Positions 1 to 7,097 of a stretch of DNA of 7,270 nt are shown one piece after another. Location: the NCBI GenBank assembly GCA_027021085.1, contig JALUVB010000224.1, positions 1 through 7,270 on the forward strand, written 5' to 3'. Both the position numbers and the translations under genes were made by a program. The stretch's first letter is position 1. Each line of letters opens with the position of its first letter. Under the pieces are notes generated by a model, which was not told the DNA's origin, did no database searches, and saw only the letters and a list, made by a program, of their open reading frames with translations. This DNA is from a bacterium (GTDB lineage Bacteria; CAIJMQ01; JAADFP01).

Positions 1-617
1 AAAGCCAGCTTGGATAATTTTAATGCTTCTTCTGCCGTTCCCCCTGCCCCTATGCCGATAAAAAGGGGCGGACAGGCATTTATCCCTTTCTCTCTTACTG
101 CCTGCAGGACAGCTTCCTGCAATCCTTTCCATCCTGCATGGGGAGAAAGATGATAAAGTAAGGAAGCATTCTCCGAACCAAATCCCTTTGCCATAACAGT
201 AATTTCCAGTTGCTCGCCTTCTTCCAGGGAAACGTGCACAATTCCCGGCGTGTTATCCCCCCGGTTTGCCCTTTTCCCCAGCGGGTCATCCACGGTGGAG
301 GCCCTAAGATACCCTTCTTCTACCGCCTCTCTTATCCCCTGGTTTACTGCTGCCTCTATTCTGCCTTTCAGTTGCACCCTGTCCCCTATATTGAGAAAGA
401 CTACGGCCATGCCGGTATCCTGGCAGAGTGGTATCTTTTCTTCCCTGGCTATACGAGCATTCTCCAGCAGGATATCCAGGATTTTCCTGGCTCTGCCCTT
501 TTCCCTCTCCCTTGCCTGGCGCAGGGAAGCTTCTACCCGGGAAGGAAGGATGGTGTTTGCTTTTAGATAGAGTTCTTTAACCGTGGAGATTATCTCTTTC
601 TGAGGAATGAATCTCAT
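1..617 (-). CDS. Fumarate hydratase class I, alpha subunit (TtdA/FumA N-terminal type), partial
   Basis: Class I fumarases reversibly hydrate fumarate to L-malate in the cytoplasm using an oxygen-labile [4Fe-4S] cluster; in many anaerobes the enzyme is split into alpha and beta subunits. The visible 205 residues from the ATG at 617 show the family blocks: LCQDTGMAVVF (first cluster cysteine C65), DNTPGIVH (about 121-128), AKGFGSEN (about 143-150) and ACPPLFIGIGAGGT (C182, second cluster cysteine). The C65-C182 spacing matches that of the first two cluster cysteines in E. coli FumA. The frame is still open at the window edge, so the C-terminus and the expected third cysteine lie outside. The start ATG overlaps the leuA stop as ATGA, so translation is probably coupled; the nearest purine-rich SD-like stretch is more than 20 nt upstream. 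L(+)-tartrate dehydratase alpha subunit is a close relative that sequence alone cannot exclude. A beta-subunit gene is expected next to the left. Confidence 0.9.
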   Translation of the reverse strand, partial: MRFIPQKEIISTVKELYLKANTILPSRVEASLRQAREREKGRARKILDILLENARIAREEKIPLCQDTGMAVVFLNIGDRVQLKGRIEAAVNQGIREAVEEGYLRASTVDDPLGKRANRGDNTPGIVHVSLEEGEQLEITVMAKGFGSENASLLYHLSPHAGWKGLQEAVLQAVREKGINACPPLFIGIGAGGTAEEALKLSKLA

Positions 618-2158
618 AAACGGGGAGCGTTAACTTTCTTCCTGGCTTTGGTCTTACGGTAGATGAGGCGGTTTATCGCATTCATGTAAGCCCGCACACT
701 GGCCTCCAGCACGTCCGTGGAGACCCCCCTGCCCATAACCTCCACCTCCCCCTCTTTTACCTTTACTGTAACTTCGCCCATAGCTTCCTTACCCGAGGTT
801 ACCGCGCTCAGGGCGTAATCTACCAGGCGGGGCTGCAACCCGGTTATGCGGTCAATTGCCTTGTAGGCTGCATCCACAGGCCCGTTTCCCACGGAAGCCT
901 CCTGGTATGTTTCCTTACCCTTGCGCAGTTTCACCGTGGCAGTAGGTATGGTGCGATTCCCGCTCACTATGTGAGTGTAGAGAAGATGATAAGTTTCCGG
1001 TATGTGAATAACCTCATCTTCCACCAGGGCTATCAAGTCTTCGTCGAAGACTTCTTTCTTCTTGTCTGCTATTTCCTTGAACATCTGGAAGCATTTTTCA
1101 AAATCTTCTTCCGGCAGTTCGTAGCCAAGCTGTTTCAACCTTGCTTTCAAGGCATGCCTGCCCGAACGCGCGGTAAGTATCATGGTATGACCTTCCAGCC
1201 CGATATCCTCCGGCTTTATAATTTCGTAGGTCCTCCTGTCCTTGAGAATACCATCCAGGTGGATACCGGAAGAATGGGCAAAAGCATTTGCTCCCACAAT
1301 AGCCTTGTTGCGCTGCACCGGCATTCCCATGAGCTTGGAGACCAGCCTGCTCACCGGGTAAATCATGCTGGTATCTATACTGGTCTGATAAGAGAAGATA
1401 TCTTTCCTGGTGTGAAGCACCATTACCACTTCTTCCAGGGCAGCATTCCCGGCTCTTTCTCCTATTCCGTTGATAGTCACTTCTACCTGTCCCGCCCCGT
1501 TCTTCACCGCGCTCAAGGTATTAGCAGTAGCCAGCCCCAGGTCGTTATGACAGTGAATACTTATCACCGCTTCCTCTATATTGGGAACATTTTTTTTGAG
1601 ATAGCCGATTAACTGGCCAAATTCATCCGGGTAGGCATAGCCCACTGTATCCGGAATGTTTACCACTTCCGCCCCTGCCGCGATAACTTTCTCCACCACC
1701 TCTTTCAGGAATTCAGGCTCAGTGCGGGAGGCATCTTCGGGAGAAAATTCTACCGAAGGGGAAAGAGAACGAGCATACTTGACGCTTTCCACGGCCATCT
1801 TCAGGATTTCTTCCTTGGCCTTTTTCAGTTTATGCCTGCGGTGAATCTCTGAGGTAGCAAGAAACACGTGAATACGCGGCTTCTCGGCAAATTTAACCGC
1901 TTCCCAGCAGGCATCAATATCCTTTTTAAGACAGCGAGCCAAACCGCAAATCACCGGGCCCTTTACCTGACGGGCAATGGTCTTTACCGAGTCAAAATCC
2001 CCCGGAGAGCTTATAGGGAAACCTGCTTCAATCACATCCACGCCAAGCCTGGCCAGCTTGCGGGCAATTTTTAGCTTATCCTCCACGGAAAGCGTTATCC
2101 CTGCACACTGCTCACCATCTCTTAAGGTGGTGTCAAAAACAGCTATCTTTTTTTCCAT
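614..2158 (-). CDS. leuA: 2-isopropylmalate synthase LeuA
   Basis: Condenses 2-oxoisovalerate with acetyl-CoA to give 2-isopropylmalate, the committed step of leucine synthesis. The 514-residue length is normal for bacterial LeuA. The N-terminal HMGL-like TIM barrel shows [10 protein letters not shown] (R13, metal-binding D14), [15 protein letters not shown] (138-151), [11 protein letters not shown] with metal ligands H202 and H204, and [14 protein letters not shown] with N238. [24 protein letters not shown] (290-313) favours LeuA over citramalate or homocitrate synthase. The C-terminal LeuA dimer/regulatory domain (about 385-510) contains [12 protein letters not shown] and [18 protein letters not shown], so leucine feedback is plausible. 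I chose ATG at 2158 because the family normally starts a few residues before [10 protein letters not shown]; an in-frame GTG at 2176 would add six residues but would sit only about 4 nt from the predicted transcript start. Neither start has a good Shine-Dalgarno. The stop overlaps the fumarase start. The leader is too short for a leucine attenuator or T-box. Confidence 0.95.
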
Positions 2159-2186
2159 GGTAAGGAATTTTATCACAGGAAAGGTG

Positions 2187-4880: not shown

Positions 4881-4916
4881 CAGTGAATAGTGAATAGTAA
4901 ACAGTGAATAGTGAAT
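4881..4916. repeat. Short direct repeats, AGTGAAT heptad type
   Basis: Two identical 15-bp copies of CAGTGAATAGTGAAT (4881-4895 and 4902-4916) lie 21 bp apart, joined by AGTAAA. Each copy itself contains two AGTGAAT heptads. The tract begins about 15 bp after the polA stop. A degenerate TAG-rich tract of similar flavour lies at the right edge of the window, suggesting a dispersed intergenic short repeat. Confidence 0.6.
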
Positions 4917-5094: not shown

Positions 5095-7041
5095 ATGAAA
5101 ATTATCTTAGCCTCGGGTTCACCCAGGAGAAAGATTATCCTGGAAGACATGGGAATAAATTTTGAGATTATAGTGCCCCGGGTAGAGGAGGCAATAAAAG
5201 AGGACATGTCCCCGGAAAAACTTGCCATTTTTCTGGCTTCCCAAAAAGCCCGGGAAGTGGCAGGGAGAGTAAGAGAGGGCATAATTATCGGGGCAGATAC
5301 CATTGTGGCCCTGGGAGAAAAGATATTCGGTAAACCGGAGAGTAAGGAAGAGGCGGTAAAAATGCTGCAGACACTTTCCGGCACACGGCACAGGGTTATC
5401 ACGGGCTTATCTTTTCTCATAGTAATAGCAGGAAAGATAGTAAAAGAGATAAAAGACAAAGAGGTTACCTGGGTAAAGATGAGGGATATCCCCCGGAAAG
5501 ATATAGAAAAATACGTGCGGGAAAATTCTCCCCTGGATAAATCCGGCTCATACGCCGTGCAGGAAGTGGAAGATAAATTTGTGGAGAAAATAGAGGGAGA
5601 TTTTTATAATGTGGTAGGGTTTCCTAAGCAAAAGGTGGAGAAAATCCTTAAAAAACTCCTGAAAGAATATCCCGGGGAAAGAGAAATAAGCATAGAAAGG
5701 TTTCACCTCAAAAAAGCATCCGGAATAGGAGAAATAGAAGGGAAAGAAGTATGGGTGAGAGGGGGAATCCCCTCTGACCTGGTAAGAGTGGTATTAAGAA
5801 ATAAAAAGCGTTTCCGGGAGGGGATAATAAAAGAAGTTATAGCACCTTCTCCCTATCGCAGGAAGCCCCCCTGCCCTCATTACGGGAGATGTGGCGGCTG
5901 CTCACTGCAGGAAATAGTTTATCCCTACCAGCTGCAATTAAAGAAAGAATACTTTCTCCAGCTCTGGGAAAAGGCACTTGCCCTACCGCTGCCCCCCTCT
6001 TTTACCATACACGGCTCCCCGGAAGAATTCTCCTTCCGCAACAAAATGGAGTTTGTCTTTGGCAGGGACGAGAAAGGAGAAAAAGCCCTGGGGCTGCATC
6101 CCAGGGGTAAATTCTGGATGGTGGAAAATCTTTCCACCTGCCTTATCTTCTCGGAAAAACACGCTCCTTCCATTCTGAAAACTTTTCAGGAATTCTCCCG
6201 GCAGGAAACAATCTATCACCCCCGCACGCATGAGGGAAATCTCAGGCACCTGGTGGTGAGAATGAGCAAATTCAGCCAGGAATTTATCCTGGGTTTAGTG
6301 GTGCAGGAAGATATTAAAGAGAAGGAAACATTAATTAATATGGTCAAAAATCTCCCTGGCTGCCAGGGACTCTTACTGGTTAAAAACACTTCCTGGGGGG
6401 ATGCCGTAGATTTCCGGGAAAGTGAACTCCTCTGGGGGAAGGATTTCGTGGAGGAAGTAATGGACAGATTGCGGTTTCATATTACCCTCCCTGTCTTTTT
6501 CCAGACCAATCCCGCCGCTGCCTTGCTTCTCTGGAGGAGACTCAGGGAAATACTGCCGCTGGACCCCGGAGATATAGTGCTTGATTTGTATGCCGGCATG
6601 GGAGTAATAGGTTTGTGGCTGGCAGACAGAGTAAAAAAGGTAATCGCTGTGGAGGAAAATATTGCCTCTGTAGAAAGGGGGCGGGTAAATTGTGCTCTCA
6701 ACCAGCTGGAAGACAGGGTGCAGTTTATCCCTTCCCGCGTAGAGGACTTCTTCCGGGAAGCGCGTGGATACATAAAACAGGGGAAAATCCAGGTGCTTAT
6801 AATTGACCCTCCCCGTTCCGGCATTTCTCCCAGGGTGAGAAAGAAAATCCTGGAACTGGAAATTCCTGCCTTGGTATACATTTCCTGCAACCCCGTTACC
6901 TTCCTGGAAGATGCTGGACATATCCTGAAGGCAGGATACAGACTAAAAAACCTGGAACTCTTTGACTTTTTCCCCCAAACACCCCACCTGGAAACCCTCT
7001 CCATCTGGGAAAAAGATACCTGTCGGGGGCCCCGGATTTGA
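5095..7041 (+). CDS. maf-rlmD: Fusion: Maf nucleotide pyrophosphatase + RlmD/RumA-type 23S rRNA (uracil-5)-methyltransferase
   Basis: A single 648-residue frame holds two complete enzymes. Residues 1-190 are Maf, a family of nucleoside-triphosphate pyrophosphatases acting on non-canonical or surplus nucleotides: LASGSPRR (5-12), GADTIV (D68), GKPESKEEAVKMLQTLSG, DKSGSYAVQ (Q156), GDFYNVVGFP. After a linker of under 10 residues comes a TRAM RNA-binding domain (about 197-255). An iron-sulfur motif CPHYGRCGGC follows (C260, C266, C269, with C349 as fourth ligand), as in RlmD. The SAM methyltransferase domain has FFQTNP (Q470), DLYAGMG (497-503), AVEEN (E520), IIDPPRSGI (D571), nucleophile SCNP (C598) and FPQTPHLE with base E633. 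The iron-sulfur cysteines favour RlmD/RlmCD over tRNA-type TrmA; the exact target uridine cannot be told. No ATG codon exists between residues 129 and 318, so a separate methyltransferase start is unlikely. Residues 643-648 and the stop are encoded opposite tRNA-Pro. No terminator is seen. Confidence 0.93.
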   Translation: MKIILASGSPRRKIILEDMGINFEIIVPRVEEAIKEDMSPEKLAIFLASQKAREVAGRVREGIIIGADTIVALGEKIFGKPESKEEAVKMLQTLSGTRHRVITGLSFLIVIAGKIVKEIKDKEVTWVKMRDIPRKDIEKYVRENSPLDKSGSYAVQEVEDKFVEKIEGDFYNVVGFPKQKVEKILKKLLKEYPGEREISIERFHLKKASGIGEIEGKEVWVRGGIPSDLVRVVLRNKKRFREGIIKEVIAPSPYRRKPPCPHYGRCGGCSLQEIVYPYQLQLKKEYFLQLWEKALALPLPPSFTIHGSPEEFSFRNKMEFVFGRDEKGEKALGLHPRGKFWMVENLSTCLIFSEKHAPSILKTFQEFSRQETIYHPRTHEGNLRHLVVRMSKFSQEFILGLVVQEDIKEKETLINMVKNLPGCQGLLLVKNTSWGDAVDFRESELLWGKDFVEEVMDRLRFHITLPVFFQTNPAAALLLWRRLREILPLDPGDIVLDLYAGMGVIGLWLADRVKKVIAVEENIASVERGRVNCALNQLEDRVQFIPSRVEDFFREARGYIKQGKIQVLIIDPPRSGISPRVRKKILELEIPALVYISCNPVTFLEDAGHILKAGYRLKNLELFDFFPQTPHLETLSIWEKDTCRGPRI

Positions 7042-7097
7042 ACCGGGAGCCTTCTGGTCCCAAACCAGACGCCCTAACCAGATTGGGCCAGCCCCCG
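7023..7097 (-). tRNA. tRNA-Pro (anticodon UGG)
   Basis: The minus strand folds as a 75-nt cloverleaf. The acceptor CGGGGGC/GCCCCCG has 7 perfect pairs and the D arm is GCCC-AATCTGGTTA-GGGC. The anticodon stem TCTGG/CCAGA carries loop TTTGGGA, giving anticodon TGG with G37 as usual for proline. The variable region is AGGCT, the T arm is CCCGG-TTCAAAT-CCGGG, and the discriminator is A at 7023. The next bases read CAG, so CCA is not encoded and must be added afterwards. The 3' 19 nt overlap the end of the convergent maf-rlmD gene. A short T-run (minus strand TCTTTTT, near 7012-7018) follows the tRNA 3' end and may help termination. Confidence 0.96.

Follow-up and report, generated by a model that had tools for sequence, protein, structure and literature searches.

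The locus raised the question of whether a nucleotide pyrophosphatase of the Maf family and an RNA uracil-5-methyltransferase are made as one protein and, if so, what the two enzymes have to do with each other. The window (the whole stretch of DNA that was analysed, 7,270 nucleotides) is an entire contig from the fragmented 1.93-Mb draft genome G000 (assembly GCA_027021085.1, contig JALUVB010000224.1). The fusion gene comes after polA and is open from ATG to stop, with zero internal stops (see Table). Pfam Maf (PF02545) matched residues 2-187 (E 1.5e-53; score 181.7 bits, cut-off 27), and the NCBIfam rumA/RlmD model TIGR00479 matched residues 208-633 (score 262.5 bits, cut-off 183.55). The RlmD-type (COG2265) half begins at about residue 195, within about ten residues of the end of Maf. 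A second RlmD model, PRK13168, stayed under its cut-off on this protein (197.8 versus 458), and so did the models for RlmC (TIGR02085, 79.3 versus 429.5 bits) and TrmA (TIGR02143, 71.8 versus 334.65 bits). The Pfam matches included tRNA_U5-meth_tr and no O-methyltransferase family.

Table. Features of the Maf-RlmD fusion gene and its 3' end; positions are those of the window.
Feature	Position	Strand	Basis or remark
Maf-RlmD fusion ORF	5095..7041	+	ATG start, 648 aa plus stop; both families matched
Maf nucleotide pyrophosphatase half, YhdE subfamily (R11-T69-Q156)	5095..5655	+	residues 1-187; PF02545, residue checks, model match to YhdE 4p0e
Junction, residues 188-194	5656..5676	+	AlphaFold model, Ka/Ks of 188-207
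TRAM-like beta region at the N-terminus of the RlmD half, about 195-250	5677..5844	+	rumA profile coverage, model strands, G478 homologue
[4Fe-4S] cysteines C260, C266, C269, C349	5872..6141	+	invariant in 25 fusions
Methyltransferase core: Q470/N472, SAM motif 497-503, DPPR 571-574, catalytic S597-C598-N599, H631/E633	6502..6993	+	alignments to RlmCD and archaeal relatives
tRNA-Pro (TGG)	7022..7097	-	antisense overlap with the final 20 nt of the fusion ORF (7022-7041)

The overlap with the tRNA gene is kept in the sister genome G001 (L049 5490-5565), and the C-terminal residues CRGPRI of the fusion protein are encoded opposite the 3' end of the tRNA. The window also holds 7-bp tandem repeats, five copies of AGTGAAT between polA and the fusion gene (4882-4916) and AGTAGAT-like units at the contig end (7249-7267). 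A fumarase-type gene (3-617, minus strand) and a LeuA/citramalate-synthase-like gene (614-2176, minus strand) overlap by 4 nt.

Residue checks placed the Maf signature S-R-E-K-D-K at S9, R12, E32, K51, D68 and K80, and the subfamily triad is R-T-Q (R11, T69, Q156), as in YhdE, and not W-Q-E (motif and triad after Tchigvintsev et al., 2013; PMC3899018). In the other half Q470, D571, the nucleophile C598 and the general base E633 align with the catalytic Gln, Asp, Cys and Glu of RlmCD. Across 25 aligned fusions, one of which is cut by a contig end, the Maf signature, the YhdE triad, the four cysteines, Q470, N472, D571-R574, S597-C598-N599, H631 and E633 never vary where sequence is available. 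A by-eye reading of the fusion from genome G478 found the same Maf, methyltransferase and Fe-S residues.

Because the window is the whole contig of a fragmented draft, an assembly error or a frameshift might have joined two neighbouring genes. Yet the identical frame is present in a separately assembled sister genome of the same genus (G001), which encodes a 648-aa fusion with 89% amino-acid identity and without stops, and in 24 more genomes. In the comparison of G000 with G001, Maf had a Ka/Ks of 0.104, residues 188-207 had 0.067 and the methyltransferase had 0.089, at a Ks of about 0.6. Both halves and the junction are under purifying selection. The sister genome and the 24 other carriers rule out an assembly artefact, to which we attach a vanishingly small probability. 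There is no in-frame ATG around the junction; in-frame GTGs occur at 5611, 5635 and 5755, none of them with an evident Shine-Dalgarno-like stretch in the 20 bases upstream. The preliminary description had reported a Maf domain and an RlmD-type methyltransferase in one frame, the Maf, [4Fe-4S] and catalytic motifs, and the lack of an ATG around the junction. All of this held up in the profile matches, the residue checks and the frame inspection, and the Maf domain can now be given the YhdE subtype. The stop or frameshift at the junction that it had considered is absent, the sister frame being open and the junction conserved, and D68 and C598, its proposed targets for mutation, map to the correct catalytic residues.

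An AlphaFold model (11 sequences, mean pLDDT 85.7, pTM 0.73) contained two complete folds, Maf and RlmD. By Foldseek, TM scores normalised by target length reached 0.91 for YhdE (4p0e), 0.90 for RlmCD and 0.87 for RumA, and none of the best 50 matches listed was a PDB chain covering both halves. The C-terminal helix of Maf (178-191) passes straight into the first RlmD strand (194-199), and the local pLDDT is 86-91 at residues 181-210 (about 86 at 181-200). This high local confidence and the continuity from helix to strand predict that no floppy linker separates the halves. The Maf loop 147-159, which holds Q156, was poorly predicted; the alignment had three Maf rows besides the query. TRAM remained below Pfam significance in the fusion protein, and was significant in the G478 homologue. 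Together with the coverage of the RumA profile and the strands that the model places at 194-250, this match points to a TRAM region in the protein.

The continuity of the Maf helix with the first RlmD strand, at good local confidence, would suit a regulatory or sensing role for Maf, in which binding of UTP, dTTP or m5UTP tunes the methyltransferase or its association with the ribosome, or in which Maf provides dimerisation. Dimerisation of YhdE is described as mediating its catalysis (PMC4529217). We consider such a role improbable, since all catalytic residues of Maf are invariant, and not just those for binding, and the single-chain model gives no sign of communication between the sites.

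How widely the architecture occurs, which the preliminary description had proposed to chart, was addressed by profile and sequence searches. These found the fusion in 26 sampled genomes of three phyla, and hence beyond Caldisericota. In a sample of 386 genomes from about 258 families, full-length matches to the fusion profile were confined to the Caldisericota genomes G000 and G001 and to G130 and G267. The fusion is present in 23 of the 35 genomes from the phylum of the latter two; the third phylum has one carrier, G478. Maf and RlmD each stand alone in most of the bacteria sampled. Four relatives from the other family of the same class, which we take to be the Caldisericum family, have a solo Maf and no RlmD-type match; one of them (G006) gave a weak match to the methyltransferase core only (1.6e-6). 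Two genomes (G147 and G284) show the converse, with RlmD standing alone and no Maf match. In seven genomes from the phylum of G130 (G412-G418; families f260 and f261) neither half was matched at E 1e-3, so that both seem to be absent together. Viral contigs yielded no relative with the fusion as query and three relatives with Maf as query (34-38% identity), and no plasmids carrying both halves were found. One case of unfused maf and rlmD neighbours (G197, about 2 kb apart) was not counted as evidence.

The phylogenies of the two halves suggest two fusion origins. The Caldisericota fusions grouped, in the methyltransferase trees, with solo RlmDs of another phylum (support 96/85; 81/53 with denser sampling), and the remaining fusions formed one group (100/100). 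For Maf, the trees placed the Caldisericota fusions near the solo Mafs of that phylum with weak support (72/47), and the other fusions formed a separate group. Neither tree can be explained by a single change, and hardly any bootstrap tree had just one. A single fusion clade is also compatible with AU tests, which left it unrejected (p 0.258 and 0.209 in one set, 0.292 and 0.413 in a second). The fusion may therefore have arisen either once or twice. The separate Maf group includes a solo Maf from G033, a genome of the phylum of G478 without a methyltransferase match. This Maf (C71:12594-13148; L017 1501-2082) nests among the fused Mafs, where the G478 protein is its sister (99/97), and G033 is best read as having lost the methyltransferase half and kept Maf.

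What the two activities might do for each other can be approached through published work on relatives. For YhdE the kcat/KM is 5.7e5 with m5UTP, compared with 2.2e5 for UTP and 2.9e5 for dTTP, and for B. subtilis Maf it is 5.1e5 with m5UTP compared with 6.8e4 and 2.3e5, respectively; in the R-T-Q subfamily, m5UTP has the best kcat/KM among these three substrates (PMC3899018). Removal by Maf of m5UTP made from the m5UMP of RNA breakdown has been proposed for Maf generally (PMC3899018), and feeding experiments in human cells showed that m5UTP arises from m5C nucleoside and that RNA incorporates m5U (PMC13010358). By analogy, the substrate preference and chemistry of each half would be as follows. 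The C-terminal half would methylate C5 of a specific RNA uridine from S-adenosylmethionine, with Cys598 attacking C6 and Glu633 taking the C5 proton. The N-terminal half would hydrolyse pyrimidine nucleoside triphosphates, releasing monophosphates, and its best substrate would likely be m5UTP. When m5U-containing RNA is degraded, m5UMP could be re-phosphorylated to m5UTP, which the Maf half would clear, and m5U would thus be kept only at the sites that the methyltransferase modifies. Selection would then keep co-expression of both halves at a fixed ratio. In this reading m5UTP would be the cellular substrate of the Maf half.

That the fusion is a bifunctional enzyme that couples the synthesis of m5U in RNA with the removal of m5UTP fits the published m5UTP preference of YhdE-type Mafs, and we regard this reading as evenly poised between right and wrong. 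Several points speak against it. Proximity of the sites gives no obvious kinetic gain, because m5UTP forms in the soluble pool. Neither half needs the other, as gene content shows in the solo Maf of the Caldisericum-family relatives and the solo RlmD of the two genomes named above; the two enzymes as a rule act without being linked, and G033 kept Maf without a methyltransferase match. In E. coli, moreover, dTTP and UTP are the only confirmed cellular substrates of YhdE, and m5U nucleotides were below detection (PMC3899018).

The same observations bear on a passenger fusion, in which two active, functionally unrelated single-copy housekeeping enzymes were joined by chance and the product was kept since neither could be lost. 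Both halves occurring alone in most sampled bacteria, the loss of the methyltransferase half that the trees suggest for G033, and a short, ordered junction with no evident shared site in the AlphaFold model are what a passenger would predict. Chance does not readily account for a partner enzyme that fits the substrate chemistry of Maf (m5U and m5UTP), nor for the same order and the same short join in three phyla despite divergence (P0001 and P0002 are 38% identical). The other long Maf frames examined also lack such a partner: among the stronger Maf matches listed, those of G181, G089, G057, G101, G235 and G037 had no recognised partner domain, though weaker matches may have other partners. 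In G181 and G089 a long open frame contains Maf with a start of its own, and the extensions of the remaining four are without a Pfam domain. On this balance a passenger fusion is a serious possibility that we nevertheless tend to doubt.

The coupling of m5U synthesis and m5UTP removal gains support from the spread of the fusion over three phyla with intact active sites, and from the gene content of the carriers. G000 has one Maf gene and one COG2265 gene, and every other carrier gave one matching place in searches with a fused protein. TrmFO was over its cut-off in none of 33 genomes, which included all 26 carriers; weak partial matches in 25 of the 33 fell mostly in MnmG-sized frames (about 490-710 aa). 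In G000 the TrmFO model had no match, not even a weak MnmG-like one, possibly owing to a gap in the draft assembly. With no second COG2265 gene and no TrmFO over the cut-off, the fused methyltransferase looks like the sole m5U-in-RNA enzyme of the carriers, within the limits of draft genomes.

As to the RNA target, the solved chains closest in sequence are not E. coli RumA, but Pyrococcus 2jjq (titled tRNA U54) and 8z62 (named 23S U747). Although TIGR00479 is over its cut-off, these titles and the lack of TrmFO matches over the cut-off in the carriers widen the choice: the fusion may act on 23S U1939, 23S U747 or tRNA U54. Of the earlier interpretation, the architecture and the RlmD type of the methyltransferase stand, with Maf of the YhdE subtype; 23S U1939 is one candidate target of the three.

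What Maf does in the cell, and what becomes of modified nucleotides once RNA is turned over, are still open questions (PMC3899018; PMC13010358). The fusion genetically links a writer of m5U to the Maf subtype that prefers m5UTP. With this natural link, and with carriers that apparently lack another m5U-in-RNA enzyme, the house-cleaning idea becomes directly testable by domain mutants, and with it the question of whether cells deliberately clear modified RNA building blocks. In its fullest form, the idea would be of a polypeptide that writes m5U and polices m5UTP, with sites that possibly communicate, kept in three phyla as the only source of m5U in RNA and perhaps arisen twice. We offer this composite picture tentatively, as one that is somewhat doubtful in its entirety.

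The Maf-RlmD protein is a new domain architecture of two known enzymes and not a new kind of system. The architecture is real and widely kept and, as far as open-access papers go, where we found no published description, apparently undescribed so far. Among its closest counterparts is human ASMTL, which likewise has an N-terminal YhdE-type Maf (PDB 2p5x, matched by the Maf half of the fusion) followed by a partner of methyltransferase fold. That partner is a predicted methyltransferase (PMC3899018) and O-methyltransferase-like, whereas here Maf is joined to an RNA uracil-5-methyltransferase that has Fe-S cysteines and a TRAM-like region. In Staphylothermus marinus maf is also associated with a methyltransferase gene (PMC3899018), but as two adjacent genes and not as one protein. 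YhdE and B. subtilis Maf share the full Maf domain and the R-T-Q motif with the fusion, and RlmD/RumA of E. coli, RlmCD of S. pneumoniae and the Pyrococcus m5U methyltransferases share the fold of its other half (TM 0.85-0.90 by target length) and the catalytic Cys, Glu, Gln and Asp, with Pyrococcus 2jjq having the same Fe-S cysteines. Unlike the fusion, all of these enzymes stand alone.
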